NCBI GenBank assembly: GCA_020247545.1
Contig: JADCIX010000015.1
Location: 1-37,142 of the forward strand
DNA length: 37,142 bases
DNA from: Rhodocyclaceae bacterium
Lineage (GTDB): Bacteria; Pseudomonadota; Gammaproteobacteria; Burkholderiales; Usitatibacteraceae
Direction: 5' to 3'
Shown: piece after piece, positions 4,532-37,032 of the stretch
How the letters are laid out: every line of letters starts with the position of its first letter
Numbering within the stretch: the stretch's first letter is position 1
The notes under the pieces: model-generated
Seen by the model: only the letters and a program-made list of their open reading frames with translations
The model's database searches: none
What the model was told of the DNA's origin: nothing
Program-made: the position numbers and the translations under genes

Positions 4532-4585
4532 TGCAGTTCCTATAGTCCCTTTGATTTTGTGCGAAACGCTTGTGGCGAATTGACG

Positions 4586-5233
4586 TTAGTCAGATTTGAC
4601 GACGCTCGCGCCGATCCCATTCTGGGACAGCACACTTTTGATTCTGTTCACTTCATCTTGGCTCTTGTATGGGCCGAGGCGCACACGGAATAACGTGCCT
4701 TTGTCTGCAACGTTGACGGGTTTCACGGTGGCTTCGAATCCGGCGAACGCAATTTTGGCCTTTAGATTTTCTGCGTCGGTTTCACTTTGGAAGGCACCAG
4801 CCTGCAAATAGAGGATTTCGTTCAAAGACTTGGGCGGCGCTGCGTCTTTGCCAGTGTCCTTGGCGGAATCTTTTGGAACCTCTTTTGCAGCGGGTGTGTC
4901 GGGCGCTTTTTTGTTCGCCCCGTCCTTTTCGCCGGGCAGGATTTGATAAAACTCAAATCGCGGTTTGTCGGAATTTGCCGGATCAGTCTTTACACCAGCG
5001 GGTGCTTGCGTTGACTTAGCGGCCGGTAATGATTCAACCGGCCTGGTCCTTTCAACAAACGGGTTTGACGTGCGGTTTAGCCAGATGGCCACACCGAGCG
5101 CCAAGAAGATGCCGAGCAGCAGGCCGATGATGATACCGGCGAACAATGGGTTCATGCCGGGTCGCTTGCGTCCCCCACCACCTGCTCCACCGGCTCCACG
5201 AACTGGTGCCTTCGGTTTCATGTCATATGCCAT
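4586..5233 (-). CDS. SPOR-domain membrane protein
   Basis: A 215-aa bitopic inner-membrane protein. A basic, Gly-rich cytoplasmic N-terminus (1–27) precedes one membrane helix at about 29–50 (LFAGIIIGLLLGIFLALG). A Pro/Lys/Asp-rich periplasmic linker (about 55–135) follows, and then a SPOR domain (about 140–213) with LQAGAF and FRVRLGPY, the typical strand motifs. SPOR domains bind denuded glycan strands of septal peptidoglycan, so a divisome-associated role is expected (FtsN-like or DedD-like architecture). The ATG lies 2 nt after the argS stop, so it is translated from the argS mRNA. Calling it FtsN would go beyond the evidence. Confidence 0.85.
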   Translation of the reverse strand: MAYDMKPKAPVRGAGGAGGGGRKRPGMNPLFAGIIIGLLLGIFLALGVAIWLNRTSNPFVERTRPVESLPAAKSTQAPAGVKTDPANSDKPRFEFYQILPGEKDGANKKAPDTPAAKEVPKDSAKDTGKDAAPPKSLNEILYLQAGAFQSETDAENLKAKIAFAGFEATVKPVNVADKGTLFRVRLGPYKSQDEVNRIKSVLSQNGIGASVVKSD

Positions 5234-5235
5234 GG

Positions 5236-6900
5236 CTACATTTTCTCCGGTGCGGATACGCCCAACACAGCAAGGCCATTTCTGAGTACTTGGCGTACTG
5301 AAACGATGAGCGACAAGCGAGCAAGTTTCAACTCCTCGTCTTCAAGCAAGAAACGTTCGGCATTGTAGTAGGTGTGTAATTTTGCGGCGAGCTCGCCCAA
5401 GTAATTGGCGACGATATGGGGTGCCAACTCGCGTGTGGCGAGGCTCAAGGTCTCGGGAAAGTCGGCAAGCGCGCGCATTAATTCAGATTCGTAGGGAGAA
5501 ACGAGTGGCGACAGCTCCGCATTCGCTAGGCTGGAAATTTCCCCGCCCCACTGCTCGAGTACGCGGCAGATGCGCGCGTGAGCATATTGAACGTAGTAAA
5601 CGGGATTGTCTTCTGAGTGACTCTTGGCGAGGTCAATATCGAAGGTCAGCTGCGAATCGGACTTGCGCATGATAAAGAAGTAACGGGTTGCGTCGCGCCC
5701 AACTTCATCAATCAAATCGCGCAAGGTCACGTAGCTGCCAGCGCGTTTGGATATCTTTACTTCTTCGCCACCGCGCATCACCGTGATCATTTGATGCAAC
5801 ACGTAGTCGGGGTAACCAGTGCGAACGCCCAACTGCATTGCTTGCAAACCCGCTTTGACACGCATTAACGATCCGTGATGGTCGGCACCCAACTCGGTGA
5901 TGGCGCGTGTGAAGCCGCGCTGCCACTTGCTAACGTGGTAAGCAATATCGGGCACAAAATAGGTGTAGGTGCCGTCTGACTTTCGCATGACGCGATCTTT
6001 GTCATCACCCCATTGCGTGGTCTTCAACCAAAGCGCACCGCCTTCTTCATAGGTGTGGCCGTTGGCGATCAGTTGGTTAACCGTCTTCTCGACCAAGCCG
6101 TCGGTATAAATTGAAGACTCAAGAAAGTAGCTGTCGAACTGAACATCAAATGCGCGTAGATCGAGGTCCTGCTCGTGGCGCAATTCAGCGACGGCAAACT
6201 TGCGCACGGCGTCAGTGTTCTCACCTTTTGCGTCTGCCGGATTTTCCAGCGCATAACGCTCGGCAATCTCCGCGATGTAGTTACCACGATACCCATCTTC
6301 CGGAAATGGTGCGTCGATACCGGCGCGTTCTCGCAGCCGGGCAATTGCCGAGGCTGTCAGATTGTTTATTTGCGCGCCCGCGTCGTTGTAGTAGAACTCG
6401 CGGGTGACTTTGTAGCCTTGTGAACGCAGTAGCCGCGACAACGTGTCGCCAATCGCCGCACCGCGACCATGTCCCACGTGAAGTGGGCCGGTCGGGTTGG
6501 CGGAAACAAATTCAACCATGACACTTTCGCCGTTGCCCACATCGCTGTGACCGAAGGTGTCACCAAGTTCGCGGACGATGTTGACGATGCGCGTTTCGGC
6601 GTCGCGCGACAACCGTACATTGATGAATCCGGGCCCGGCAATTTCTGGTGTTGACGCGAGCAGGGAAGATGCGGGCAAAGCGGCGACCAAAGCATCGGCG
6701 ATGTCGCGCGGCTTTTTACCGAGTTTTTTCGCGAGCTGCAACGCGCTATTCACGGCGAAGTGGCCGTGATCAGGATTCTTCGGTTTCTCGACCGCGATTT
6801 CAAAACGCGGGGTTTCGTCCTTGAGTGCCGGAAACGCGGAGAAGAGCGCCTCTTCAAACAGTGCGGCAACGGCGGACTTGTTGTCGGATAACGTGGTCAT
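5236..6900 (-). CDS. argS: Arginyl-tRNA synthetase
   Basis: Class I aminoacyl-tRNA synthetase that charges tRNA-Arg, 554 aa, within the usual range. An N-terminal Add-1 tRNA-binding domain (about 1–100) precedes [15 protein letters not shown], the HIGH motif (residues 141–144). The KMSK-equivalent [12 protein letters not shown] follows, then the helical DALR anticodon-binding domain at the C-terminus. The frame extends nine codons upstream to 6927, but that ATG sits directly on a TATAAT box, so I took the ATG at 6900. First gene of the argS–SPOR–dsbA operon. The SPOR gene starts 2 nt after its TAG stop. Confidence 0.97.
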
Positions 6901-23333: not shown

Positions 23334-23380
23334 TGGCGCGCCCGACACGATTCGAACGTGCGACTTCTACCTTCGGAGGG
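23334..23380 (-). other. attL: 3' fragment of tRNA-Arg(CCG)
   Basis: Read on the minus strand, these 47 nt are the 3' part of tRNA-Arg. The anticodon loop CTCCGAA (anticodon CCG) is followed by the 3' anticodon stem GGTAG, variable loop, T-arm GCACG-TTCGAAT-CGTGT, acceptor strand CGGGCGC, discriminator G and encoded CCA (23334–23336). The 5' half (acceptor, D-arm, 5' anticodon stem) is absent. The sequence stops matching a tRNA two bases 5' of the anticodon loop. Such a 3' tRNA copy is the usual footprint of a tyrosine recombinase that crosses over in the anticodon loop. With this orientation the integrated DNA lies to the right, and the intact tRNA should be at its far end. A simple tRNA pseudogene is the alternative. 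Confidence 0.85.
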
Positions 23381-23729
23381 CATAAATTAGCGTCGTTTTT
23401 ATGTTTCACTAATCGGCTTGGCGCGACGTTGATTGGCCACAAAACCTCGTTAACCTCTTGATAAGCAAAGAAATTTAATGTGTGGTTTAAAGTCAATCAA
23501 CAACTATTAAGACAAGAATAACACAGCAATTTGTCAGGTCCTTGATTCTGATGCGCTGGAAGTAAATTTCACGCGCCAAACTACTTGCGACTTCTACCCT
23601 CCTAGTTTAAATTGAAGTCAGTCGGAGCCGACCCGACGAGAAAAACCGGATCTAGTGTCCGGCTTCTGATTCGAAACCTGAATTGGAAATTTCCATAAGC
23701 ACGGCCCATTCCCAAACTCCGTCCGGACT
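23381..23729 (+). promoter_or_regulatory. Leader of the recombinase gene, with candidate promoter and att-like repeat
   Basis: About 350 bp without a gene, AT-rich between 23,450 and 23,540. TTGCGA (23585–23590) and TAAATT (23608–23613), 17 bp apart, make a possible sigma-70 promoter for the giant recombinase. Its -35 overlaps TGCGACTTCTACC (23586–23598), an exact 13-bp direct repeat of part of the tRNA fragment (23359–23371). That coincidence would let the recombinase bind near its own promoter, but this is inference. A small dyad CCGGA/TCCGG lies at about 23,647–23,663. Confidence 0.4.
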
Positions 23730-26700
23730 TTGCGAGGCCTAGGCGAAGTTGATTCGCCCCTAACGACCCGAAGCTCAGTCGACCGCAGCAAAATTTTGCT
23801 GTTAGGTCAGACCTACTTTTCTGCGTCCATATCGCGCGCCAATCCGGCGCGCGTACTCATTTGGTCAAACCGGAATGAGTCTAGCCACTTGCGTGGCATC
23901 GAAAACCCTTTCTTCAATTTTTCGATTGGACGCCCCTTGGATCAGCCCGATTTTTTGTCAACCTCCGATAGCCACTTTTCTGTGGAGGAAAAGTCACGCC
24001 TGTACGCATTGACCTGCGAAGCCCTAAGGCTTTCGCCAGATCGCGTTGAAGATCTCACTAAAGTTGCGCGGGCCGCCGGTAGGGGCTTCACCACATTGAT
24101 TGGAAGAATTTCGCACGCAGCCGAGTGGGCGAAAGCTTTTCACGATTTAGCTGACAGTGATCTGACGCTGCTAGCGCGTCCGCGAGCTAGGCATAGAGGA
24201 TTTGACCAACATGCGTTGGCGGTACTGCTTATTCGCCAGCCACGGGCTTCTCTACAGATGGCTGAGCAAGCCGAATGCGAGGCGGTTGCCGCATTGTCGC
24301 TCATGCAACTCATAGGCGACGCTGGGCATAGCGCGCCACAATATTTTTATCGTGGTCTAGAAAAAGCATATTTTGAGAATGCGCCGGTATGGACCGAAAT
24401 TCGCAAAGTAGCGCTGGTCGGTTGGCGCTATTCGCAGAACGTCTTTGCCGAATCGCACAACGAATTACATCGGAATTTCGTAAAAAAACTGAGCGAATTG
24501 CGCCAACGGGGCCTACCAGAAGTTGGCTTGTTGCTACCCCGTCGGACTTCGAATGCAAATTGTCCGCTGCCGCAGAAACTGATCGCGAAGGAAGTCCAAT
24601 CCACAATTCAAGAACTAGTCGAAGGCAAAAATGATATTTCGCCCAATCTTGACCTTTACCAACTGGTTCTGAGTGACGACCACTTCAAATCACCCCTTAC
24701 CAGTTTTCGAGTCGGCTACGATTGGGACGCGCTGCAGCCAGAACAACTGAAGCCCCTATTGGCGCGGTTGGCAATCGTCATTGCCGACATAAGTCCCGAG
24801 AACAAATCTCGTCGACTTGCGGGATGTGCGCTCGTCGTTGCACTGTTCGCGCGAACGTCAATTTCTAGGTGTCTTCAGCTGCCCATTTCGCGGAAGGGAA
24901 CATTACACCTAGACCTTCAGTGTGGAATTATTCGCCGAAAAATTGACGTGGTGGCAAAGCGCACTGATGAGGGTCGGGGACCGCGCACCAATGGATTCTG
25001 GTTTCGAACGCCAATTCCCGAAAACATTTGCGCAATCCTCTTCGATGCGCAGCGTCGCTTCCCAGAAGCGAAGAGCATGGGTCAGCTACTAAGGGAATTT
25101 TCTGTTGATGAAAAGACATGCTTTGAACTTCTGAATCTCGACTGCGATTTTATTCATCGGCCCGAATCCGCCCGCTTCGCGCGATCAATGTCGACCGCTA
25201 TGTTGGCACTCGGTTTGCATCCTTCCGTTGTCTTTTTGGCGAGTGGCGATACGACGGTTGTTCCAAGCGGCGAAGCTCACTACCTAAGTCGCGCGCAGTG
25301 CGAGATTCACTTCGCAGTTTCAGCCTTCTGTGAATGGGCTGGTCTTCATCAGCCACGGCCTCTAAAGAGGAATCGCAAAATAGGCTCACCGAAGCTGCCC
25401 GAGTTCAATGAACAACGGTCGGCTTTCGTAGCGCTACAGACGCTAGTGCAAAACGAGAAAAGCAGGATCACAACGCGCGCTCGTATGGAAGAACGCACAA
25501 AATTCTTCAATCTATATGTGAAGGCAGTCGCTTTGCAGGTCACGTGGGGAATTGGCGAACGAGTTGCGCGGTTTGAAACGCTCACGTTCAACCGCCTCTT
25601 TGGAATTGAGGAAGCGGTGCTCGTCACAGACAAAGCTACAGACACGTATAGCAAGATTCGATGCGTACCGGTTAGCGACGCCATCAGAAAAACGTTGCTG
25701 CACTTTCTTGAGCACATGCGATCGCATGCAGACTGGTTAGAAAAGAATGGCCAACAAAAATGCGCACAGCACCTTCGCAAGATCGCGAGCGGAGAGCGTC
25801 AAACACTAGGTGCCTTTGAGCTGCTTTACGCAGCCGAAGACGGGCAACTTTGCACGCGGGCATTGACAGTCAACGATGTCCGCGAGTTGGCCAATGCAGT
25901 CTGGCCTGGCGAATTGAATCGACCACGACACTTTTTCGTCAATGAATTTGTAAGTCGACGCGTTGCTCAAGTGGCAATCGACGCCTTCACTGGGCGGCAC
26001 TGTAGGGGAGCAGCGCCATTCGGCTTAGGTAGTGGACTTTCCGTCGCGCAATATGTTTTGTATTTGCGCGAGATCATCAACCAAGTTCACAAAGACCTGA
26101 AAATTACTCCCTTAGTTGGATTTGGTAGAACAGCCGAGCGGTTCTTAGTGATGCCAATCGTCGCAATTCGCCCTAACCTTGAGCCGCTCAGCAATCAATT
26201 TCTAATGGATCGAATTGAAGCGGACGATTCTCTAAGCCCGGACGTTGTTCACCCGGCCGACGGCTGCCCTTTCGACAGCGACACGCTGCTTGCGGTCGGA
26301 AAAGTACGCTACTTGAGGCGCCAGTATCTTCGCAGTTCTGTCGCCGGCAAATATCCCGCAGGAGCGCTGCTTTTCTGCTTAGCTTTTTTCGATGGCGTTT
26401 CAACGCCACACGAGCTTAGGGCCTATTTTTCAGCGATTACTGAAGGACAAGCGCATGACATTGGTGGACCCGTCGTTGTTGAGCTGGAGAAGGATGGCTC
26501 GGTCTTTTCGCAGCGTTTAATCTCACGTTCTACGATTTTGGCGGCTGGCCTACATACGTCCGCCACAACTCGATGTTCACTAGCGGAAGCCGAGTCTGAG
26601 TTGAGACTGCTGTTGGCTGAGCTAGATTCAGGATGGCGTTCCGCACAAAATCGGCGGGCAATGGAACTGGTTTCCGCATTGGTCAGTCATTCGTTGACTT

Positions 26701-28850
26701 ACGAAGTTCCGCAACATCTTCAAGTCGCGGTGCATCACAAAGCGCCGATCCTCAACAAAGAGAATTTAGCGCGCATTTTGCAAGGGGCCCCAAATTTAGC
26801 CGACGCTGTAATTTCCAAGCGGCGCCCGGCTAGCCACGGCCGCTCCAAAGACTTTGAAACAGTACTTCAAGTGGCGCGGCACTGGGCAAACGAAGAAAAC
26901 CGGCTCGGCGAGCAGCAGGCAAGAAAAGCTGGACTAGTTCGAGACCTGAAAGTGCTCATCGATTGCCAATCATTCGACGAGGCCGAAGCACTTTTGGCCG
27001 AGTGGATCATTGCGGAATGTGCCACGAAACCCCTGGGCAACCGACTCAAAATTCAAACGATTCTGCGCTACGCCATTTTTTCAAAGCGCTTCTTTCGAAG
27101 GGTCCGATTCGAGGGCGGCACAGACTTTGATTTCGACACCTGGCGCGAGATCATTGAGGACCTTGAAAAAGGCGAGGGTGACAACAAAGAAGAGGCCGGT
27201 TGGGTAATGACCCATGTCGCTACTTTTCTCAATTACATTGGGAAGGCGGTGCCCGTAAAGCTAATTGGTAAAAATTCACCAACACCGCGCGCACCGCGCG
27301 CGCCCGTTTACGTGGCGGAAAAGGAGTTGCAATTAATCTGTGAGCACTTAAAGCAAGAGCGCGGCGATTCCAATCCGAGCGAGACCGAGCAATTGCTGTT
27401 GAGGTTCATGCGCAAAGCACCTGTCCGTCCTTGCGAGGTGCTTTTTGCAAAATTGAATCATGTCAATCCCGATGCTGGCGTCTTTGCCGTCACAACAGGC
27501 GGACATGCACACTTGAAATACGACTCAACGCGCGGGCTCGTCGGAATCCCGGCTGAATTGCGAGCCGAGTTTACACATCTGGTTGCACGTCGAAAGTCTT
27601 TTGGTGCGGCGCAGGATGTTCCGCTTTTCGGAAACCATTCCACCGATCAGGAGACGTCGTTTCAAGATTTTTCAGAGGCTATCGTGGCCGCGACACGCTA
27701 TGTAACAGGCCGAAACGACTTTCGTTTCTACGATCTGCGCGCAAATGCGGTCACTGACTTGATCGCTGCGCCAGGGCCAATTCTTGCTCGGCTTTCAACC
27801 GCCGTCACCACTCGGCAGCACATGACCGATTCCGACATCGCAACTGAGCACTCTCGCGTCGCGCTTGCGGCTCGCCAAGCACGTCACACAATATTTGCAG
27901 CCTTACGCTCATACGCCGCTTCGGGATTTCTCGAGCTCGCTGAGCACCTTCGATACCAAACAAGCGACATTGAGGCATCAAGCGCCTTCGTCGCTGCAAT
28001 GTGTCGCTCAACAATCTCGGTGATCGATAAGCGAGCATCAAAAGCTCGCGAAGGTGGTCAATTTCAATCGGCGCGTTCACAGATCTTGTTCGATCAAGCT
28101 GCCATCGTAGCCACTACATTTGCCAAGGTAGTGCTGGCCGATACAGCCGCGCCCCCGCCAATTTCTTCGATACCTGCAGCGCACACTCAGCACGAGCGAC
28201 TGGTGCGCGCGGGCTTACTGGTTGAGTACGGCCATGGAAACCGCGCCGCAGCAGAGCACCAATCGATTCAAAGTGAGCTTGTCAGTGTGCTCATCCGCCA
28301 AGTTGAACTACTGAAGAAAACGATTGGTCTTGTGCAAAAAAAAGCGCCGCCAGCTGCAGTCAACCTTATCCGCAATGACACATTGCTGAGTCAGCTTATT
28401 CAGGATGTTCCAACTTGGCTGACGAGTAAGCCAGATGCCGTGCAGCTGTTGCGCAGAGGCCTTCTTTCAACTGTTGCTAAGCCCCAATCGCACCTGACTG
28501 TCCCAGACTTTGACGTTCTCAAGAGCTGGTTGCCTTGGCTCAAATCGCTGCCTGAAATTGGCGTACAAGTTTTTCTGCAACCGAATTCTCTCTTGTTAAG
28601 CCCAGAGTTAGCACACTTGCTTCGCGCCAATTGCGTGGCCGTTACAAGCCATGCTTCAAAGAGCGGTGGTGTGGGCGCCCTTAAATTTGGACCGCGAGAG
28701 GATCGCGACGAGCATCTACTGACGCGAACAGAAATTCAATTGCCTTCAACGCAAGTTACCGGAAGAGTGGGGCGGCTACTCATCCAAGGTTTTATTTTGC
28801 TTGAGGCGGCCAGATGTCAAACACTCACAAAGGAGATGAAAAATGTCTAA
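23730..28850 (+). CDS. Giant three-domain tyrosine recombinase (integrase)
   Basis: A 1706-aa protein next to the tRNA-Arg attL, the expected place for the element's integrase. Three recombinase-like regions are seen. Region 1 (about 350–510) has an LFARTSISRCLQL box I with the catalytic Arg apparently lost. Region 2 (about 560–790) has GERVARFETL (Arg611), Lys635, His734, GRHCRGAAPFG (755–765) and Tyr775/Tyr778; the second Arg appears to be Val. Region 3 (about 1200–1400) has VRPCEV (Arg1233), Lys1263, YDLR (Tyr1334, Arg1337), RHT (His1386) and Tyr1395, with the canonical nine-residue His–Tyr spacing, so it is probably the active domain. About 300 more residues follow. Integrases are usually 300–450 aa. 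The first codon used is TTG with no clear ribosome site, so the start is uncertain and up to about 100 N-terminal residues may be wrong. It overlaps the next gene by 8 nt. Confidence 0.75.
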   Translation: MRGLGEVDSPLTTRSSVDRSKILLLGQTYFSASISRANPARVLIWSNRNESSHLRGIENPFFNFSIGRPLDQPDFLSTSDSHFSVEEKSRLYALTCEALRLSPDRVEDLTKVARAAGRGFTTLIGRISHAAEWAKAFHDLADSDLTLLARPRARHRGFDQHALAVLLIRQPRASLQMAEQAECEAVAALSLMQLIGDAGHSAPQYFYRGLEKAYFENAPVWTEIRKVALVGWRYSQNVFAESHNELHRNFVKKLSELRQRGLPEVGLLLPRRTSNANCPLPQKLIAKEVQSTIQELVEGKNDISPNLDLYQLVLSDDHFKSPLTSFRVGYDWDALQPEQLKPLLARLAIVIADISPENKSRRLAGCALVVALFARTSISRCLQLPISRKGTLHLDLQCGIIRRKIDVVAKRTDEGRGPRTNGFWFRTPIPENICAILFDAQRRFPEAKSMGQLLREFSVDEKTCFELLNLDCDFIHRPESARFARSMSTAMLALGLHPSVVFLASGDTTVVPSGEAHYLSRAQCEIHFAVSAFCEWAGLHQPRPLKRNRKIGSPKLPEFNEQRSAFVALQTLVQNEKSRITTRARMEERTKFFNLYVKAVALQVTWGIGERVARFETLTFNRLFGIEEAVLVTDKATDTYSKIRCVPVSDAIRKTLLHFLEHMRSHADWLEKNGQQKCAQHLRKIASGERQTLGAFELLYAAEDGQLCTRALTVNDVRELANAVWPGELNRPRHFFVNEFVSRRVAQVAIDAFTGRHCRGAAPFGLGSGLSVAQYVLYLREIINQVHKDLKITPLVGFGRTAERFLVMPIVAIRPNLEPLSNQFLMDRIEADDSLSPDVVHPADGCPFDSDTLLAVGKVRYLRRQYLRSSVAGKYPAGALLFCLAFFDGVSTPHELRAYFSAITEGQAHDIGGPVVVELEKDGSVFSQRLISRSTILAAGLHTSATTRCSLAEAESELRLLLAELDSGWRSAQNRRAMELVSALVSHSLTYEVPQHLQVAVHHKAPILNKENLARILQGAPNLADAVISKRRPASHGRSKDFETVLQVARHWANEENRLGEQQARKAGLVRDLKVLIDCQSFDEAEALLAEWIIAECATKPLGNRLKIQTILRYAIFSKRFFRRVRFEGGTDFDFDTWREIIEDLEKGEGDNKEEAGWVMTHVATFLNYIGKAVPVKLIGKNSPTPRAPRAPVYVAEKELQLICEHLKQERGDSNPSETEQLLLRFMRKAPVRPCEVLFAKLNHVNPDAGVFAVTTGGHAHLKYDSTRGLVGIPAELRAEFTHLVARRKSFGAAQDVPLFGNHSTDQETSFQDFSEAIVAATRYVTGRNDFRFYDLRANAVTDLIAAPGPILARLSTAVTTRQHMTDSDIATEHSRVALAARQARHTIFAALRSYAASGFLELAEHLRYQTSDIEASSAFVAAMCRSTISVIDKRASKAREGGQFQSARSQILFDQAAIVATTFAKVVLADTAAPPPISSIPAAHTQHERLVRAGLLVEYGHGNRAAAEHQSIQSELVSVLIRQVELLKKTIGLVQKKAPPAAVNLIRNDTLLSQLIQDVPTWLTSKPDAVQLLRRGLLSTVAKPQSHLTVPDFDVLKSWLPWLKSLPEIGVQVFLQPNSLLLSPELAHLLRANCVAVTSHASKSGGVGALKFGPREDRDEHLLTRTEIQLPSTQVTGRVGRLLIQGFILLEAARCQTLTKEMKNV

Positions 28851-29715
28851 CAGTGCTCAACGCGCGTATATCGCGAAACAGGTGCGTAAGAAAAATTACC
28901 AAGTGCTTCTGCAAGAAGTTCCGCGGGCAGATCCAATGGATCCTGAACCAATGGAACAAGTACATGCGAACGAGAGAGCCGAAGGAAGAACACTTCGAGA
29001 TACGCTGACTACGCAACCGGAAAACACCGCACTTATCATCGATCCTGCGTGTGGCTTGAAGTCACTCGTGATGGTGCCAGCGCAACACCCAGACTTGCCC
29101 GAGTTAGAACCGACGGGTGCTACCGAAGAAATCAAAGCGCAAGAACTTGTTGAGGATATGGTCCATATTCAATCATTGACGCGCCAACTAATAGCGGGTC
29201 TTGTCGCGGGAACGATCTCAAGCTTCGACGATATTGTTGGATACGTTCCGCCTGAATCCTTGGAGAAAGTGCTCGAGCAAGTCGCGAGAGCATACAAGAA
29301 GAATCCGGTTACGCTAAACACTAGTCGTGAGCAATTTTCAATTGGGGGAATTGCAAACGGCGCACCGATTAAGGTGGCATCAAGCCAAAAACTCCTCGTT
29401 CGCGGTGTTTATCGGGGTTGGTCGAGCGGCAGTTTTGACACCACAATCATAGGGTTGGCGCACGACTCGTCATTGCTTCGCGACGAAGAATTTTTGAAGT
29501 TCTTTGGGGAGCAGATGGAAACTGAAGTTTTGTTGTCCACTGCTGCCAATGGACTAACCCTTCGTGCGCTAAAGTTTTCGGCTGACTTCGAGTCTGAGGT
29601 ACAGGTCAATATCTGCCGCGTGTGGAACCTACGACGTGGTAAGTGGGAGTTGCATCTCACAGAACTGGTGGAAGAGGCTGATTTTCTGGCCAAACGCCTA
29701 GCGCTCAAAAATTGA
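28843..29715 (+). CDS. Hypothetical protein coupled to the giant recombinase
   Basis: A 290-aa protein I do not recognise. The ATG lies inside the last codons of the recombinase gene (ATGTCTAA, 8-nt overlap) with AAGGAG seven nt upstream, so translation is coupled and the two products probably work together. The first 25 residues are basic (AKQVRKKNYQ), followed by an acidic, Pro-rich region. The middle (about 100–160) is predicted helical (ELVEDMVHIQSLTRQLIAGLVAG). The C-terminal half is beta-rich with hydrophobic strands and no cysteines. No helix-turn-helix, transmembrane segment or nuclease motif is evident. A recombination-accessory or directionality role is a guess from position alone. 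Confidence 0.75.
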   Translation: MSNSAQRAYIAKQVRKKNYQVLLQEVPRADPMDPEPMEQVHANERAEGRTLRDTLTTQPENTALIIDPACGLKSLVMVPAQHPDLPELEPTGATEEIKAQELVEDMVHIQSLTRQLIAGLVAGTISSFDDIVGYVPPESLEKVLEQVARAYKKNPVTLNTSREQFSIGGIANGAPIKVASSQKLLVRGVYRGWSSGSFDTTIIGLAHDSSLLRDEEFLKFFGEQMETEVLLSTAANGLTLRALKFSADFESEVQVNICRVWNLRRGKWELHLTELVEEADFLAKRLALKN

Positions 29716-29868: not shown

Positions 29869-30618
29869 TTAGCGATACCATAGCAACTCTGCAGGGACAT
29901 CGAGCTCCTCCCTTGAGCGGAAACCGTGCGCGGCTAGAACGCGTGACTCGACCTCCGCCAATTGATTGCGGTACTTCGAGTTATCTTTCATTAGGCCGAT
30001 CGACATAGGTATGATCGGAAAGGCATAGCACATGACTACCCAGCCTACTCCTGAAGCGAGAGCTATGACCATACCTTTTTCCTCGTTTGCAAGAAATGCC
30101 AGCGCGAACACAGCCGCGGTTACGAGTTTGTACGCGGTGACGTCACTCTTTGTCATCGCCTGTTCAATCGGCGCTTGCTCTTCCTTCAGCTGGCGAAGAA
30201 CTGCCGCCTTTCGTTCCTCGAGTTCTCGCCTCATGGCCAGCTTCTTTTCTCGCTCCTTCGCCCGCAGCTCGGTAGCAGCACGACGATTTTGTGCTGCTGC
30301 TTCAGCCTCGCGTCGTGCTTTCTCAAGCGGATTCGTACCGACGATCTTTAGCGCTTGACTGATGATGCGAACGGCATCATCGGCTGGCAAGCGGAAGAAC
30401 TCTTGGCGTTCTAGGCGATGGCTGCTCAGCCGCTTAAAGATGGCCTGCTCAACGGCGAACCCGTCCTCGACTTCCCAGTAGTGATGAACTTTCCACCGGC
30501 CTGGTACGCCGGTTGGTGAGCTCAACTCGGTTGCCCGGTCGTGCGGGTCACGCGTGCTGAAGCCGAACTTCACCAGTTCCGGCACGTGGACGTTTGTGAG
30601 AAGGTAGACGAACTCCAT
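29869..30618 (-). CDS. GIY-YIG (T5orf172-like) protein with coiled coil and membrane segments
   Basis: A 249-aa protein with three parts. Residues 1–85 look like a GIY-YIG nuclease of the T5orf172/Mug113 type: FVYLLTN as the GIY strand, VKFGFSTRDPHDRATEL with the Gly and catalytic Arg, and an EFF motif (RQEFFRL) at the Glu position. Residues about 95–155 are a highly charged Arg/Glu/Ala/Lys segment that should form a coiled coil. Residues about 160–205 hold two hydrophobic stretches (LVTAAVFALAFLA and VIALASGVGWVVMCYAFPIIP) likely to be membrane helices. A membrane-anchored nuclease is the simplest reading. Target unknown. It is a single gene convergent with the recombinase operon. Confidence 0.75.
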   Translation of the reverse strand: MEFVYLLTNVHVPELVKFGFSTRDPHDRATELSSPTGVPGRWKVHHYWEVEDGFAVEQAIFKRLSSHRLERQEFFRLPADDAVRIISQALKIVGTNPLEKARREAEAAAQNRRAATELRAKEREKKLAMRRELEERKAAVLRQLKEEQAPIEQAMTKSDVTAYKLVTAAVFALAFLANEEKGMVIALASGVGWVVMCYAFPIIPMSIGLMKDNSKYRNQLAEVESRVLAAHGFRSREELDVPAELLWYR

Positions 30619-30652
30619 GGCTATTCGGACTGGCTAAAATATTTACGGATAA

Positions 30653-30681
30653 TGCATAAATGGCCGAAACGTGATGGGCAA
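30653..30681 (-). promoter_or_regulatory. Candidate promoter of the GIY-YIG gene
   Basis: On the minus strand TTGCCC (30676–30681) and TATGCA (30653–30658) are separated by 17 bp, 35 nt before the ATG at 30618. The rest of the 307-bp gap (30,619–30,925) shows no supportable gene; the 66-codon plus-strand frame in it lacks a ribosome site and coding character. Confidence 0.4.
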
Positions 30682-30925
30682 TTTACCATCGACGACTCAT
30701 TTCCTCGCTCATCCACATGAATAACTCGCAGCAGTGTTAAAGATTTCGCCAAAACGGAACCTTACCCATTTTCTTTGCCCAAAAATGTACCATTCCAAAA
30801 GCTTAATGCTTCTCCCTTTCTACGCAATGCCAGAAAGATCGCGTCAAGCGTCAGTCGAACCGACAAAAACAGTGAATTTGGACGATCCGAGGTTGTGTCA
30901 AAACCACGGATCATTGATAGCGTAC

Positions 30926-31702
30926 TTACTTTAATCTCAGCTTCTCGTAGTGTTGCTCCACGATTCGTTTCATATCGTCAGGCAAATAAGGCATCACTCT
31001 CACTTCAATTTCTTCGGGAACATCAAACATTGCTTCCGCGATGCCCCCTGCAATACAGGCGATAGTGTCCGAATCTCCCCCGATTGATACGGCATTTCGA
31101 ATGGCGTCTTCCACGTTCTTTGAACGCAATGCGCAAATAATCGCGGCGGGGACGGTAATCGCTGCCTCAACTGTTGGAGTCATCTGGCGTCGCCAGTCTG
31201 CAACCGACTCCCAGAGCACGTAGTCGTATTGTTTGGACAATTCGGTTTCAATAGCCTTTGCAGATTTGCCTTGCTTGGCCATCACAATGGCCGACGTCAC
31301 GGCGCGAACCGAACGAATCGATTCTAGGTGGTCGTGGCTTACAACAGCGGTCTTCTCCGCGATATCGCCAGCGAGCATGCCGTCGTGTGAATACAGAAAG
31401 CCAACAGGGCTGACCCGCATCGCACCACCATTGCCCCAACTCTGATACGCAGGCATATCGGGTGTGATCACCCAGCACCAGAAGCGCGATCCGTATCCTC
31501 GATTACCATACCGGTTTCCCCAATCCCGCAGGGAGTCAGCGATATCGCGATCGTTGAGTAGTGCATCTGCGATCGCGATTGTGCAAATCGTGTCATCCGT
31601 AAACGAGCAGCCTTCCGTGAAAAGCTCAAACCGTTTTGTCTTGATATTCAACGGGCCGTTGAACTGTGACCCGATGATGTCTCCCGCAATAGCACCTAAC
31701 AT
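30926..31702 (-). CDS. ADP-ribosylglycohydrolase (DraG/ARH family)
   Basis: A 258-aa cytosolic hydrolase that removes ADP-ribose from proteins or other acceptors, or processes free ADP-ribose derivatives. The family motifs are all present: GAIAGDIIGS at the N-terminus, the metal-binding FTDDT (about 37–41), NGGAMRVSP in the middle and GGDSDTIACIAGGIAEA near the C-terminus, whose Asp residues complete the binuclear Mg site. The frame opens eight codons earlier (31726), but the ATG at 31702 is preceded by AAGGGAG and gives the normal family N-terminus. It lies 113 nt downstream of the Macro-like gene on the same strand, and the two products fit one pathway of ADP-ribose recognition and removal. 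Confidence 0.92.
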   Translation of the reverse strand: MLGAIAGDIIGSQFNGPLNIKTKRFELFTEGCSFTDDTICTIAIADALLNDRDIADSLRDWGNRYGNRGYGSRFWCWVITPDMPAYQSWGNGGAMRVSPVGFLYSHDGMLAGDIAEKTAVVSHDHLESIRSVRAVTSAIVMAKQGKSAKAIETELSKQYDYVLWESVADWRRQMTPTVEAAITVPAAIICALRSKNVEDAIRNAVSIGGDSDTIACIAGGIAEAMFDVPEEIEVRVMPYLPDDMKRIVEQHYEKLRLK

Positions 31703-31720
31703 GGGCTCTCCCTTACACAT

Positions 31721-31736
31721 ACGCACACATGTGCGT
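31721..31736. promoter_or_regulatory. Dyad upstream of the ADP-ribosylglycohydrolase
   Basis: ACGCACA and TGTGCGT form a perfect 7-bp inverted repeat with a 2-nt centre, 18 nt before the hydrolase ATG. It could be an operator for a dimeric regulator; it does not resemble the dyad at 32,306. There is no T-run, so a terminator is unlikely. Confidence 0.4.
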
Positions 31737-31815
31737 CAATTCCAGAACGCCATATCTCCTGAGGCCTTGTCAATACCAACGCCAAAGTTTGGCGGATTGA
31801 AATTCTCGATCGCAG

Positions 31816-32217
31816 TCAGGAAAGGTTGCGAGGGAGTACGAATTCGCGCCAGTCCTCTGCAAAGCTGCAATTGGCAGGCGCTCCCATAAACATCGGCGCT
31901 ATCTGCCGGTCTTCGAAGCCCGCAATGCCGCAACCGATGCGGGTGACAAAGAACGACGCATCCGGATGCGCCTTTGCGTAGGCGATGAAGTCCGCAACAT
32001 GTTTGCGGATATCGCTAAGCGACATGCGGTCCATTTCATGATTGAGCGTCGGAACGGCATAAGACTGGCCGGTTTTGCCGATACCCACGCCGACTTCAGC
32101 GCCGAAGTGTTGGTAAGCCGCATAGGCTGCGCCTCCGCCGTGGTGTCCATTCAGGTTGCTGCCGAACACAAAAATTACCTTGCCCGTCGGGCGAGCGCCG
32201 TCTTCGTGAAATTTCAT
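31816..32217 (-). CDS. Macro-domain-like protein (A1S_2505 / phage non-structural family)
   Basis: A 133-aa single-domain protein. The N-terminal VIFVFGSNLNGHHGGGAA corresponds to the ADP-ribose-binding loop of Macro-like proteins (G-S-N-L-x-G-x-H-G-x-G-A-A). YAVPTLN and FFVTRIGCGIAGF are the later conserved strands of the A1S_2505-type family, known from phages and mobile elements. Binding or hydrolysis of an ADP-ribose derivative is expected from fold similarity, not shown. The ATG has AAGGAG seven nt upstream. First gene of a leftward unit with the ADP-ribosylglycohydrolase, transcribed from the promoter at 32,311–32,340 and divergent from the NrtR-type regulator. Confidence 0.8.
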   Translation of the reverse strand: MKFHEDGARPTGKVIFVFGSNLNGHHGGGAAYAAYQHFGAEVGVGIGKTGQSYAVPTLNHEMDRMSLSDIRKHVADFIAYAKAHPDASFFVTRIGCGIAGFEDRQIAPMFMGAPANCSFAEDWREFVLPRNLS

Positions 32218-32305
32218 CGTTGAATCTCCTTAGATGGTTACTTGCCAGGCGCAGGCTGCAGTGCTGGTTGCGCAAGGATGATATTGTGGCTGAACAAATA
32301 AGATA

Positions 32306-32340
32306 GTTGCATAATACAACGAACCATGTTAGATTGGCAA
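32306..32340 (-). promoter_or_regulatory. Promoter with overlapping operator-like dyad
   Basis: On the minus strand TTGCCA (32335–32340) and TATTAT (32311–32316) are 18 bp apart, a good sigma-70 promoter for the Macro-like gene. The -10 sits in the middle of GTTG-TATTATG-CAAC (32306–32320), a dyad whose occupation would block RNA polymerase. The divergent NrtR-type regulator is the obvious candidate to bind it; this is inference from position. Confidence 0.55.
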
Positions 32341-32376
32341 CCATTCACTCCACCAAAGCACAAGCAAACCCAACAA

Positions 32377-33174
32377 ATGTCCCTCTCGACGCCAAAAACA
32401 ATCAGCAACGCCCAACCAGACTTTGAGCGCCCTTCGACGACCGTAGATGTCGTGATGTTTGCGGTGCGTGACGGTCGCCTACATGTATTGCTTGTGAAGC
32501 GGGCGGATGCGCCAGGCGAGCCATTCCCAGGTCATTGGGCGCTACCGGGCGGCTACATTGACGTCTCAAAGGACGATAGCCTAGAAGCCTGCGCGTTACG
32601 TAAGCTAAAAGAAAAGACCGGTGTCGTGAGCCCCTACCTGGAGCAACTTGGCAGTTGGGGTAGCAAAACACGCGATCCGCGTGGTTGGCACAGTACACAT
32701 GCGTACTTTGCACTACTGCCTGCCGCAAGTGTCATCACACCCGTCAGCGGCGCGAACGCGGCGGAGGCGGACTGGGTTCCTATTGCCAGCAAGGGTGTTG
32801 TCCACAAGTTAGCGTTTGACCACCAAGTCATCTTGGAGGCTGCAGTAGAAAGGTTGCGCAACAAGGTGGAATACACATCCTTGCCGGCGTTCCTGCTACC
32901 TGAAACATTTACGTTGACCGAATTGCAGACCGCGTTCGAAACTGTACTGGGGCGCGCGCTGGACAAGAGCTCCTTCCGAAAGCGCGTAGAAGACGCCGAG
33001 CTTGTCGTGGCGCTAAAGAATAAATTCAGGGAGGGTTCAAACCGACCAGCCCAAATCTACAAACTTCGCTCGAAAACGGCCCCCGTGTTCTTTCCTCGTG
33101 CCATTAGCGAGACCAAGAGTAGGCCCGTCAAATCAACAGCAAAAGTCCGTCGTACAAGCGAATCAAATTTCTAG
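32377..33174 (+). CDS. NrtR-type transcriptional regulator (Nudix domain plus winged helix)
   Basis: About 265 aa. The N-terminal Nudix-fold domain (about residues 10–150) has WALPGGYID, but the Nudix box is degenerate: the REUxEExGU block reads RKLKEKTGV, the preceding Glu is Asp, and two extra residues lie between Gly and that position. Loss of the metal-binding glutamates points to a sensor, as in NrtR, which binds ADP-ribose or related NAD metabolites. The C-terminal part (about 165–250, LLPETFTLTELQTAFETVLGR and RKRVEDAELV) matches the NrtR winged-helix DNA-binding domain. An in-frame ATG at 32326 is possible but lies 5 nt from the dyad; neither start has a clear ribosome site. It is divergent from the Macro-like and glycohydrolase genes, which it probably controls. 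Confidence 0.85.
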   Translation: MSLSTPKTISNAQPDFERPSTTVDVVMFAVRDGRLHVLLVKRADAPGEPFPGHWALPGGYIDVSKDDSLEACALRKLKEKTGVVSPYLEQLGSWGSKTRDPRGWHSTHAYFALLPAASVITPVSGANAAEADWVPIASKGVVHKLAFDHQVILEAAVERLRNKVEYTSLPAFLLPETFTLTELQTAFETVLGRALDKSSFRKRVEDAELVVALKNKFREGSNRPAQIYKLRSKTAPVFFPRAISETKSRPVKSTAKVRRTSESNF

Positions 33175-33201
33175 AAGCCGTCACAACCCATGGAGATCGC
33201 C

Positions 33202-33375
33202 ATGAAATGGAACAGCATTTACGGAATGAAGCCAATCAATAGCGCTGCTGCAGCAGTCTCGCGTCGATACCGAAAGAAGTGCACTCCAAAAGCGACTGCC
33301 TACGCCGAACGCAACGCGGAGCGGGCGTTGGAGAGGGCAAAGTGGGCACGCCAGAATTCGCCCTATTGGAAGTAA
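33202..33375 (+). CDS. Small basic hypothetical protein
   Basis: A 57-aa product, rich in Ala, Arg and Lys, with a long amphipathic stretch TAYAERNAERALERAKWARQ that should be helical. The ATG at 33202 has GGAG six nt upstream; the earlier in-frame ATG (33190) has no ribosome site. It begins 27 nt after the regulator gene and is followed closely by the next gene, so it is probably expressed from the same mRNA. No family recognised. Confidence 0.55.
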   Translation: MKWNSIYGMKPINSAAAAVSRRYRKKCTPKATAYAERNAERALERAKWARQNSPYWK

Positions 33376-33400
33376 CGTGGATCCATTTATGGGAAACAAA

Positions 33401-33730
33401 ATGACAACCCCTAAGGAATATCGCATCTACGTCATACGGCTCGATGAGCGGGTACTGGCGAGCAAGAAGTTTTCTCGTGAAAACCCGAATCGTAATCCGA
33501 CAAAACCGTGCGTATACGTAGGCTCAACTTTTCATTCGCCAGAAAAGCGTTATGAGCAGCATCTGACAACAAAATTAGGTAACAGTTTCGTGAGGCTGTG
33601 GCATCAAGGGTTGCATAAACAAATGACCGCCAAGCAACCCGTATTCCTGACGCGCGAGGAGGCCAAAGCCCATGAGGCAGCACTTGCCGAACGCTTACGT
33701 CGCCGCGGCTTTGGTGTGTGGTCGCGATAG
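33401..33730 (+). CDS. Minimal GIY-YIG-like protein
   Basis: A 109-aa protein with the layout of a stand-alone GIY-YIG domain: YRIYVIRL as the first strand, VYVGSTFHSPEKRYEQHL carrying the Gly and the catalytic-type Arg, and a C-terminal helix with glutamates (EEAKAHEAALAERL). The match is to the small, poorly characterised members of the superfamily, sometimes given unrelated names in databases, so nuclease activity is uncertain. I chose the ATG at 33401, with GGGA six nt before it; GTG 33377 and ATG 33389 are in frame. It is the second GIY-YIG-like gene of the island and differs clearly from the one at 29,869. Confidence 0.65.
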   Translation: MTTPKEYRIYVIRLDERVLASKKFSRENPNRNPTKPCVYVGSTFHSPEKRYEQHLTTKLGNSFVRLWHQGLHKQMTAKQPVFLTREEAKAHEAALAERLRRRGFGVWSR

Positions 33731-33764
33731 CCTAGAACAAAGGCCAATAAATTTAGGAAACCTT

Positions 33765-34190
33765 ATGACTCAAACAACCGCCATGGATCAAGCTCTGGTT
33801 GAGGCTTATCTTGAAGCCGAATATCGAGTGCATGCTGAACCACCGATCACGCTCCGAATCGGCTTACCCTCCCATGCGCTGCGCAAACTCCATCAGTTAC
33901 ACGGTGGAAACAGCGCATTTATCACCGCTTTCAATCCATTCAGTCAGGAACTGAGTGAGGAAGAAAGCCTCGCTCGCCAAGAACTTCTCAAGGCTGATTT
34001 ACTTGCAGCGGGGTGCTTCGTCCTTCCGGGGATTGGCCGTCGTTTCTTAAATGAAATGTCGCGCGAGCCAAGTTTTTTAGCCGTTGGCATAGCGGCGGAA
34101 GCAGCTAAAGCAATTGGCACGAAGTATGAGCAAAACGCGATTGTCTACAATCAGGCAATTGCCGTGCCTGAGCTCGTATTGCTAAGGTGA
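33765..34190 (+). CDS. DUF3293 domain protein
   Basis: A 141-aa protein matching the DUF3293 pattern as I know it: an opening helix VEAYLEAEYRV, then FITAFNPFSQEL (the 'xITAxNP' core), an LLKADLLAAG helix, EPSFLAVGI, and the closing KYEQNAIVYNQ…PELVLL. The biochemical role of this family is not established. The frame opens at 33672, overlapping the previous gene, but the ATG at 33765 with TTAGGAAA upstream gives the normal family length. It lies in the plus-strand run of small cargo genes. Confidence 0.75.
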   Translation: MTQTTAMDQALVEAYLEAEYRVHAEPPITLRIGLPSHALRKLHQLHGGNSAFITAFNPFSQELSEEESLARQELLKADLLAAGCFVLPGIGRRFLNEMSREPSFLAVGIAAEAAKAIGTKYEQNAIVYNQAIAVPELVLLR

Positions 34191-34389
34191 GATACGGACT
34201 AGATTGACCGAGAACTGATTGTTTCAAAGGGGGGAGTTGTTCCAGATTGCCGACCCTGACGTGTTGTCGAACTCGGCTAAAAGGAGATCATGTAGTGAAA
34301 AACCAAGGCGTAGTAAGACACATCCAGAGCAGTGCCCCACCGAGCCATATATTGGCGAAACCTTTAACTCCGGTGTGCCGAGGTGGCCA

Positions 34390-34821
34390 ATGACCTGCAG
34401 AAAAGGGGACATCGCCATCGTGGTCCGTGCAAAGCATGAATGCAACCTTGGCACCATCGTCAGAATCCTCGACGTTGATGATGGCAAGGGTGATTTGGCG
34501 TTTAAGAACGAGTCGCTGGTGTGGAGCGTATCTTGTGACTATCCGATGACTTGGTCCAAAAATGGGCGGCTCTTCCTTCGCACGGAAGGACCCGTACCGG
34601 ATTGGAAGTTGCAGCCGATTCGTGGTGGCGACAAGTCGGAAAAGGCTAACAGCGAAAGCAAGTCATGCCGGAGCGCCAAGTTGCAGGAGCAGAGAGAAGA
34701 GATAGTTTCCAATATGTCGTTGAGTGAAATTCGAACCATGGATTATTTTGGCTTCACTGTCTCCGAATATGTGGTGGCAGTAGAGGCGGGGATGCTGAAA
34801 TGGCCAAAGGTGCGGACATGA
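34390..34821 (+). CDS. Hypothetical protein of mobile-element type
   Basis: A 143-aa product. The first 75 residues (CRKGDIAIVVRAKHECNLGTIVRIL and later VPDWKLQPIRG) resemble a small beta-rich, KOW-like domain often seen in hypothetical proteins of plasmids and prophages. A charged linker and a helical segment (LSEIRTMDYFGFTVSEYVVAVEAG) follow. The frame is open back to 34219, but that codon is TTG without a ribosome site and the extra residues look non-coding, so the ATG at 34390 is preferred. Its TGA overlaps the next ATG (ATGA at 34818), so the two are coupled. Function unknown. Confidence 0.65.
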   Translation: MTCRKGDIAIVVRAKHECNLGTIVRILDVDDGKGDLAFKNESLVWSVSCDYPMTWSKNGRLFLRTEGPVPDWKLQPIRGGDKSEKANSESKSCRSAKLQEQREEIVSNMSLSEIRTMDYFGFTVSEYVVAVEAGMLKWPKVRT

Positions 34822-35270
34822 CTAAGAAGCTACTCGTACGAACCAATCCGTATAACGGCGGCCTTGTCTTCGCTCGTGAGGAGCGCGCGTTACTAATCTC
34901 GACCATCCACCAAGCGATCGACTCCTCCAAGACGTGGGGGGAATTCAGAGCAGCGATACCAGCCAAAGAATATTCCAAGATCATCGTGGGAGCCTTTGAA
35001 GATGGTGGTGAAAGACGGCCAGCAAAATCAGCGCCGTTTGATCCTGAGCAGTTGCCTGGTTGGTCTGATGGCGACTACCCACCTTGGCTGCAATCCGAGA
35101 TGGAAGCGGTGCTCCCGCGAAACCTGCTCCAACAATTCGGACGCCTTGACACCACCAACCTGAATGGCAGTTTCTGGTACATACCTGAAGAAAACAAAGC
35201 CGCCATTTGCGCTGCGCTCACCTCACTCGGCGTGACGGTCGAGGATGCCGAGCACCTTCGGTTTCACTGA
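34818..35270 (+). CDS. Hypothetical protein
   Basis: A 150-aa cytosolic protein with no family I can name. The start shares ATGA with the upstream stop, which favours 34818 over the in-frame ATG at 34800. The middle is rich in Pro and Trp (GWSDGDYPPWLQSEMEAVLP). The end, TTNLNGSFWYIPEENKAAICAALTSLGVTVEDAE, resembles the C-terminus of small proteins found on plasmids and integrative elements. No membrane segment, nuclease or DNA-binding motif is evident. Confidence 0.7.
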   Translation: MTKKLLVRTNPYNGGLVFAREERALLISTIHQAIDSSKTWGEFRAAIPAKEYSKIIVGAFEDGGERRPAKSAPFDPEQLPGWSDGDYPPWLQSEMEAVLPRNLLQQFGRLDTTNLNGSFWYIPEENKAAICAALTSLGVTVEDAEHLRFH

Positions 35271-35329
35271 TCGACACGTCACTCAAGACGCCCGTGAAAC
35301 GCCAACCTGGATCACTTTAGAACCCAAAC

Positions 35330-35358
35330 GGCGGGCACTGTTTTTCCCGTGCTCCGCC
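35330..35358. other. Stem-loop between two small cargo genes
   Basis: GGCGG-GCAC pairs with GTGC-T-CCGCC (one bulged T) around a 10-nt T-rich loop. No T-run follows on the plus strand. It could attenuate transcription or protect RNA ends before the gene at 35,384. Confidence 0.35.
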
Positions 35359-35383
35359 ACACCATCATTAGGAGATAGACCAC

Positions 35384-35605
35384 ATGAAAGTTACTCGTAG
35401 AGTTTCAACGGGATCATTTTTTGGCGGAGATGGAAAGGGGTTTCTCATACCAATGCGCAATAACAGGACACCTGGGAAGGTAGTGGTAGCTGGCCCGAGA
35501 TATGAAGGCCCTGACTTAGGCGACCTTGGAGAGGCGAAAATTACGCCCGAGTTGCTCGCAATATGGGAGGGGCTTGTCCCTCGTAAAAGTGAAACCAAAG
35601 AATGA
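35384..35605 (+). CDS. Small hypothetical protein
   Basis: A 73-aa product, basic and Gly/Pro-rich at the start (VTRRVSTGSFFGGDGKGFLIP) and acidic toward the end. AGGAG lies nine nt before the ATG, which supports real translation. No recognised family. It is the last small gene before the Sir2 gene and may share its transcript. Confidence 0.55.
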   Translation: MKVTRRVSTGSFFGGDGKGFLIPMRNNRTPGKVVVAGPRYEGPDLGDLGEAKITPELLAIWEGLVPRKSETKE

Positions 35606-35730
35606 CTTCCTCATGCATTGAGTTTCGCAACCATCGACACGGTAAAAGGATAGATCCAGCATCTAGTAAAGGATGTAGGCTCAATATGCAAACGCCCGCT
35701 TCGAGATTACAAAGCTTATGAGGCCTTGAC

Positions 35731-37032
35731 GTGTATTCAATTGATCAAATTGAACAAGCGGTTACGCTGGCGCAACTTCCGCAGGTTAAATCCGTGTCCT
35801 ACATCGGGCACGGCGATATCGAGATGCTGCGCGCGCTCGTCGATCGCACAGATGCGCTTGTTCAGGTCTTTGACTATTCGGATCAATGGCGGGTAAGCAG
35901 CACCTTGGCGTTTGATGACGAGGGGATAACACCGTCGCATCTGCCACGGCGTCCGGATTGGTTTGCGGAGCGGGTGAGGTTCTTCGCTGAGGGCATCGCA
36001 CCCGGCGACTTACTTATTGATGACACGTTCCGCTTAAAGTCGCCCAAGGAGTCGGGGCTTCAGCTTCTGGACTATCGACAAGCGCGGGTCGTTTATCTAC
36101 CCAAGCAATCGTTCTCAATTAAGAGCGCGCCGCTTTACTACAAATGGACAGCCACTCCACATGGGATGGTCGGGTACCAGATGCCATCGTACCGATTGAT
36201 GCGGGATATTGAAGCTGAGTATGTCGTAACCTTGGCGAGAAACGTATCTCGCGCAGCCAGCGCACTTGTTGCGTGCGATGGCATTGTCATTACGGCTGGG
36301 GCGGGACTAGGTGTCGACTCCGGTCTGCCAGACTTTCGTGGTGAGAAGGGATTTTGGAGGGCCTATCCCGCGCTTGCCGATAGCGGGATTCGCTTTGAAG
36401 ACATCGCGGATCCTGCTTCCTTTGACAGTCATCCGCAGCGAGGCTGGGGATTTTATGGCCATCGTCTTCGCCGCTACCGAGAAACAACGCCACATGCGGG
36501 ATTCAACATCCTCAAAAATTGGGACGCCTCATGCCCCCAAGGTTCTTTTGTTGTGACGAGCAATGTGGACGGGCAGTTTCAGAAAGCAGGCTTTCCGGAA
36601 AACGACGTGTGGGAGATTCACGGCTCAATCCATCAACTGCAATGTACAGAGCCCTGTTCGCATACCGTCTGGCCAGCGACGGATGTGCACCCAGTCGTCG
36701 ATGAGACCGTTCTTGAAATGACGTCCCCGCTGCCGCACTGCCCTCGCTGCGGTGCATTAGCGCGCCCGAATATTCTGATGTTCAATGATTTTGCCTGGGT
36801 GAATCGACGGGCAACGGCGCAACGATTGCGGTTCGATGAGTGGCTGCAAAATGCAGAACGCATCGTAGTCATCGAACTTGGTGCCGGTACGGCAATTCCG
36901 TCGATTCGCGAGATGGGGCAGCGAATCGCGAATAGGAAGGGTGGCACGCTAATTCGCATCAACCCTCGTGCACCCCGTTGGCCGGTCAAATTCCCCCACC
37001 CTTGGCCACTTCAAATTCCCCCACCTCGCTGA
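35731..37032 (+). CDS. Sir2-family NAD-dependent protein with novel N-terminal domain, 3' end disrupted
   Basis: Residues about 1–170 match no family I know. The Sir2 domain follows: GAGLGVDSGLPDFRG (190–204, NAD-binding), TSNVDGQF (the TQNID motif), catalytic-type His297 in IHGSIHQLQC, and zinc cysteines Cys305, Cys309, Cys337 and Cys340, then RPNILMF and IELGAG. GAGxGVDSGLPDFRG defines a bacterial subgroup distinct from CobB. Such proteins use NAD for deacylation or ADP-ribosylation, or to make ADP-ribose derivatives. GTG start with GAGG seven nt upstream. The last strand (IRINPRAP) runs into IS21-type terminal repeats, so the final ~20 residues are element-encoded and the natural C-terminus is lost, although all catalytic motifs remain. 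Confidence 0.88.
   Translation: MYSIDQIEQAVTLAQLPQVKSVSYIGHGDIEMLRALVDRTDALVQVFDYSDQWRVSSTLAFDDEGITPSHLPRRPDWFAERVRFFAEGIAPGDLLIDDTFRLKSPKESGLQLLDYRQARVVYLPKQSFSIKSAPLYYKWTATPHGMVGYQMPSYRLMRDIEAEYVVTLARNVSRAASALVACDGIVITAGAGLGVDSGLPDFRGEKGFWRAYPALADSGIRFEDIADPASFDSHPQRGWGFYGHRLRRYRETTPHAGFNILKNWDASCPQGSFVVTSNVDGQFQKAGFPENDVWEIHGSIHQLQCTEPCSHTVWPATDVHPVVDETVLEMTSPLPHCPRCGALARPNILMFNDFAWVNRRATAQRLRFDEWLQNAERIVVIELGAGTAIPSIREMGQRIANRKGGTLIRINPRAPRWPVKFPHPWPLQIPPPR

Follow-up and report, generated by a model that had tools for sequence, protein, structure and literature searches.

The stretch of DNA analysed here, hereafter the window, comprises 37,142 nucleotides of contig JADCIX010000015.1 of a Rhodocyclaceae bacterium (assembly GCA_020247545.1) and carries the left part of a genomic island that adjoins a fragment of a tRNA-Arg gene; just inside this edge lies a single open reading frame (ORF) for a giant recombinase-like protein of 1706 amino acids (aa), which we denote Q, followed by a smaller ORF and by cargo genes (Table 1). 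An earlier note on this DNA had called a single protein of this length, and the ORF is indeed there, with TTG as its start codon, although the position of the start is not settled because the open frame around Q reaches 1722 aa. A Pfam scan of Q gave no match, and NCBIfam and PHROGs placed a weak signal of a recombinase inside residues 1104-1352. When Q was used as a single query, its own genome yielded one match, Q itself, no close relative appeared in collections of genome contigs, viral contigs, plasmids or phages, and whole genomes other than its own held relatives in 0 of 28, 1 of 399, 1 of 369 and 0 of 398 cases, the own genome being included in each of these totals. A 1677-aa relative (E 1e-17 in the single-sequence search) is encoded by G403, a different genome from the same order, and in G656 an 843-aa relative is followed by a gene for a 732-aa recombinase.

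A profile made from Q and the G403 protein matched 11 of the 399 genomes, namely the own genome, G403 and nine others, and in six of these nine a gene that we call Y stands directly before another, Z, with a different break in two (G271 and G010) and a contig end in one (G252). The same order is seen in plasmid gene sets, in which Y, of about 725-775 aa, is mostly annotated as hypothetical (as an integrase in Vibrio) and Z, of about 1000-1060 aa, as an integrase; of the 8 annotated loci retrieved, 7 have a small ORF, X (137-234 aa), ahead of Y. Aeromonas has a Y-Z copy that is unannotated. Matches to the pair by tblastn, mostly partial and below 60% identity, occurred in 234 and 262 of 72,556 records; in IMG/VR, scans A1, A5 and A8 retrieved nothing, A9 one relative, and A7 two loci that proved to be ordinary integrases or nothing further by hidden Markov model (HMM). 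Seven Acinetobacter plasmid loci (L015-L017, L020-L023) were also seen to carry Y-Z, annotated there as a hypothetical protein and an integrase, with a small ORF directly before Y in six.

So how does Q relate to these gene pairs? In hhalign comparisons, Q aligns with the Y family from residue 319 to about 800 (probability 99.7, E 1.8e-25) and with the Z family from residue 848 to about 1450 (probability 96, E 2.2e-9), the crossed comparisons with the halves swapped fail (E 0.21 and 0.45), and all of these E-values are those of single comparisons; furthermore, a larger Z HMM reaches residues 877-1115 of Q (E 2.6e-6). Judged by these alignments, Q belongs to the Y-Z family as we define it, its N-terminal half resembling Y and its C-terminal half Z in that order, and is a head-to-tail fusion of two proteins whose genes are neighbours in relatives.

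Because one half of Q corresponds to one gene (Y, two domains) and the other half to another (Z, two domains), the protein is best described as having four predicted recombinase-like domains, YR1 to YR4, not three; the three regions named in the earlier note, at residues 350-510, 560-790 and 1200-1400, are all supported, and the domain that it missed is YR3. Against eight hand-picked ordinary recombinases, the family profiles scored E 3.9e-16 for YR4, 8.2e-8 for YR2, 0.001 for YR1 and 0.49 for YR3. In a larger set with 29 further recombinases, the YR1 profile reached E 6.6e-6, and 1e-5 in a second run in which none of 60 column permutations attained the real score; the 29 are automatic picks of the longest ORF over a match, at least four of which (L089, L100, L103 and L107) are in the wrong frame since they are longer than the frame reported by the original search, and the set of eight is unaffected by such picks. 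The YR2 family profile matched XerD (E 5.8e-6) over a 27-residue stretch, and sequence searches of the PDB with YR1 and with YR3 found no recombinase. The likeness to recombinases shows in YR1 at the profile level only, and in YR3 through the fold predicted for a homologue. By its catalytic-domain fold, Q falls within the tyrosine recombinase superfamily, as seen from the profiles and, for YR3, from the homologue's model only.

The catalytic columns were counted in an alignment of 20 systems. YR4 appears to be the catalytic domain of the family because its Arg (19 of 20), Lys, second Arg and Tyr (20 of 20 each) are near-invariant, and the version in Q looks unusual at two positions: the box-II His, present in 16 of the 20, is Tyr in Q and G403 and Arg in two others, and the box-III (GH) His, present in 19, is Arg in Q alone. 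The R-K-H-R-H/W-Y set of Q therefore reads R1233, K1263, Y1334, R1337, R1385/H1386, Y1395, with both His positions different. The residues singled out earlier for this region do lie on catalytic columns, except that the His column holds R1385 and not the adjacent H1386. The fused relatives G031 and L058 keep all tabulated YR4 columns. In YR2, the Arg (R611 in Q) and Lys (K635) are found in all 20 systems, the second Arg (R733) in 19 and the GH His in 18, Q having R756 there; at the Tyr position, 9 of 15 systems have Tyr (by eye) and Q has Gly, and the box-II His position in Q is N730. The second Arg said to be lost from this region is accordingly retained, and what is absent instead is the two His residues and the Tyr. 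In YR1, the Tyr (Y518) is present in 20 of 20, and a conserved Arg pair is not apparent by eye. Among the domains of Q, only YR4 retains in the alignment the catalytic R, K, R and Tyr that mark the family, and the earlier picture of several recombinase units in one chain, one apparently catalytic and the others degenerate, holds.

Table 1. Features of the island's left part and of Q, with positions in the window
Feature	Positions	Strand	Basis
tRNA-Arg(CCG), 47-bp 3' part, left edge of the island	23334..23380	-	match to the intact gene on contig C30
13-mer TGCGACTTCTACC within the tRNA fragment	23359..23371	+	sequence search of the window
13-mer, second copy, inside the element, upstream of Q	23586..23598	+	sequence search of the window
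Q, fused Y-Z giant recombinase, 1706 aa	23730..28850	+	ORF list, profile comparison, HMMs
YR1, degenerate recombinase-like domain, Tyr518 kept (~residues 315-545)	24672..25364	+	profile comparison, alignment
YR2, R611/K635/R733 kept, no Tyr, box-III His replaced by R756 (~residues 550-797)	25377..26120	+	HMM, profiles, XerD match
YR3, putative pseudo-recombinase domain (~residues 840-1040)	26247..26849	+	Z-family HMM; predicted fold of a homologue
YR4, R1233, K1263, Y1334xxR1337, R1385/H1386, Y1395 (~residues 1085-1450)	26982..28079	+	family scans, profiles, alignment
290-aa ORF downstream of Q, 8-bp overlap with Q	28843..29715	+	ORF list, family scans

Fused proteins are four in number: Q, the G403 protein, one of 1798 aa from the one-contig genome G031 (Y HMM E 7.8e-60, Z HMM E 4.3e-74), and one of at least 1523 aa that runs off the end of locus L058. 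Elsewhere the gene break lies at other points: in two Gallionella metagenome-assembled genomes, YR1 is in one gene and YR2 plus Z in the next, and in the one-contig genome of the congener G010 (L045:5126-10888) the module is unfused, with a break seemingly inside YR2, and stands away from that genome's intact tRNA-Arg(CCG). In a tree of 20 systems (G152, G252, L016, L018, L020, L022 and L023 being left out), the protein is fused in 4, while the gene break falls between Y and Z in 13, between YR1 and YR2 in 2 and inside YR2 in 1. A single origin of the fused form, forced on this tree as one fused clade, was rejected (approximately unbiased test, p 0.003, on a saturated tree). The saturation shows in its terminal branches, most of which measure 0.7-2.4 substitutions per site, and the tree cannot order fusion and splitting.

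The tRNA-Arg site claimed for Q in the earlier note holds as the place of insertion, but the window contains only the 3' fragment of the gene, the intact tRNA-Arg(CCG) gene being on another contig, C30; ARAGORN found no tRNA in the window, and Rfam, at gathering scores, no match there. In the congener G013, DNA matching the left flank of the window (96.2% over 1727 bp) continues unbroken into an intact tRNA-Arg(CCG), beyond which lies DNA homologous to C30, and the 9-kb G013 stretch has no match to the window beyond 23380. Given that G013 keeps an uninterrupted site and that nothing past 23380 matches, the island begins at 23381; a search for its right end in the 13.8 kb of the window that remain gave none. 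A distance of 350 bp separates Q from the attL junction, and within it falls the second copy of the 13-bp core, a candidate second binding site; the 13-mer has no third place in the window on either strand. On C30 (L014, 1-6853), an IS21-like gene pair (by eye) is found near the intact tRNA-Arg, as is a second copy, 75% similar, of the DNA flanking the tRNA, possibly indicating tandem islands. The same contig carries at 4580-5338 (-) the N-terminal part of a truncated arm-type integrase with its start facing the tRNA (by eye). With this integrase and the IS21-like pair beside the tRNA, more than one element may be present here.

To the right of Q, family scans of the 290-aa ORF gave no match near the curated cut-offs. 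The ORFs downstream of Q, of its G403 relative and of the G010 module all overlap their preceding gene, and no similarity to each other was detected when the three were compared. The cargo at 29869-37032 has a theme of NAD and ADP-ribose, with T5orf172, ADP-ribosylglycohydrolase, A1S_2505-family, NUDIX-NrtR regulator, DUF3293 and SIR2 proteins. The last 170 bp of the contig (36973-37142) are 98.8% identical to a G010 stretch (L045:510-679), possibly a repeat that broke the assembly.

What could such a protein do? We lean towards the view that Q unites in a single chain what is otherwise a two-protein (Y plus Z) tyrosine recombinase of integrative islands. YR4 would cut and rejoin DNA at the attachment sites, and YR1-YR3 would serve as pseudo-subunits within the chain, binding half-sites and keeping the catalytic domain in the synapse, so that the number of chains required would be lower than that of a Cre- or XerD-like tetramer; Q, in short, may contain a built-in synapse. 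It would drive both integration and excision of the island with its left end at 23381 in tRNA-Arg(CCG), the small protein encoded downstream being a possible cofactor. A more elaborate arrangement is suggested by the fact that YR1 keeps the Tyr without the Arg pair and YR2 of Q keeps Arg-Lys-Arg without the Tyr: YR1 might donate its Tyr in trans to YR2, much as Flp subunits donate theirs between chains, to form a composite second active site, so that each Y-Z chain would be a recombinase complete in itself, with two unequal sites, and Q would be a single-chain synapse, which we consider distinctly doubtful. Several observations speak against the single-chain recombinase that we favour. Z proteins were not hit by BLAST with Q, nor was Q detected by the first two Z HMMs, the link between Q and Z resting on the profile comparison and the larger Z HMM. 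YR3 has no profile similarity to recombinases in either the small or the larger set (E 0.3-0.49), and only 2 of 5 AlphaFold2 models of its homologue average above 60. YR4 of Q departs from the family at both His positions and is the only one of the 20 without the GH His. Finally, C30 has a second integrase, truncated (by eye), at 1.5 kb from its intact tRNA, and the other module loci scanned (L005-L007; ten besides L083; nine, partly overlapping) are without a tRNA gene.

This truncated integrase opens the way to a different account, somewhat unlikely in our judgement, in which another integrase inserted an island into tRNA-Arg and Q is either cargo or part of a nested element at the same tRNA. 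The orientation of the integrase towards the tRNA, the adjoining IS21-like pair, the similar second flank of the kind that tandem islands might leave, and the lack of a join between contigs C7 and C30 would all suit this account, but the C30 integrase is itself cut short, and it is Q that lies next to the attL junction with a core copy between them. The replaced His residues, in YR4 and, for the GH His, in YR2 too, together with the fusion itself, could alternatively mark Q as a decaying, inactive relic; this is unlikely, as the frame remains open over 1706 codons, R, K, R and Tyr persist, and the fused relatives G031 and L058 have the YR4 columns intact. The fusion might even be an artefact of assembly or a frameshift in a Y/Z pair, since 7 of the 11 listed junctions between the two large genes show a 4-bp overlap and a small indel could join them; as the fused proteins number four, are divergent and come from four records that include a one-contig genome, we find this scarcely credible.

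The single-chain reading of Q invites comparison with known systems. XerD and Cre assemble four chains per synapse; Q resembles them in YR2 by sequence, in the homologue's YR3 by model and in YR4 by catalytic residues, whereas they have one catalytic domain per chain. RIT elements and Tn554 likewise combine several tyrosine recombinases in one module, but as separate genes, whereas Q is one chain and not three consecutive recombinase genes, and we know of no fused four-domain chain among them. The Gamma-Mobile-Trio, which Mahata reportedly described in 2024, is said to be a three-gene recombinase module of Gammaproteobacteria, and the sets of X, Y and Z genes in Vibrio and Acinetobacter may be this module or a cousin of it. 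Nine X, Y and Z proteins had no NCBIfam match of that name, the presence of such a model in NCBIfam not being established. PMC12715929 portrays the Gamma-Mobile-Trio as a mobile element that carries many offensive and defensive systems. GInt, according to PMC5385486 (Bardaji 2017), consists of ginABCD, three separate integrase genes and a small helix-loop-helix gene, the recombinase-related products of which act together, GinC without the first Arg, in a site-specific island with cargo. The likeness to the Q system lies in the several recombinase-related units, one of them degenerate, and in the cargo-bearing island. Judged by gene layout, Q is not a GInt module: relatives have two large genes, and Q has a single fused gene with a 290-aa ORF after it, each half holding two domains. 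In PMC10214605 (Idola 2023), which also mentions RIT elements and Tn554, SE elements, marked by a strand-biased circle and a 6-bp footprint, have an intA-tfp-intB-srap operon in which Tfp is recombinase-like without the catalytic motif; a large recombinase, a non-catalytic relative and a small protein in one operon recall the Y-Z system, but gene layout and domain grouping differ, and by layout Q is not such an operon. The earlier suggestion that three separate genes of a RIT or GInt trio were the source of the three regions is likewise rejected on gene layout, the halves of Q corresponding to Y and Z with two domains each. A fused four-domain recombinase chain was not found in the literature searched, the scope of which excluded most subscription papers. 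Multi-recombinase modules are already known, and the fused four-domain chain appears to be the new part. Pairs of a hypothetical protein and an integrase on Acinetobacter plasmids are tied to a single family in which the position of the gene break varies, falling between domains or within one. If active, a single chain that carries four recombinase-like domains would amount to a fused synapse made by nature and would make the way in which unequal subunits order strand exchange directly testable, and Q could offer a one-gene recombinase.
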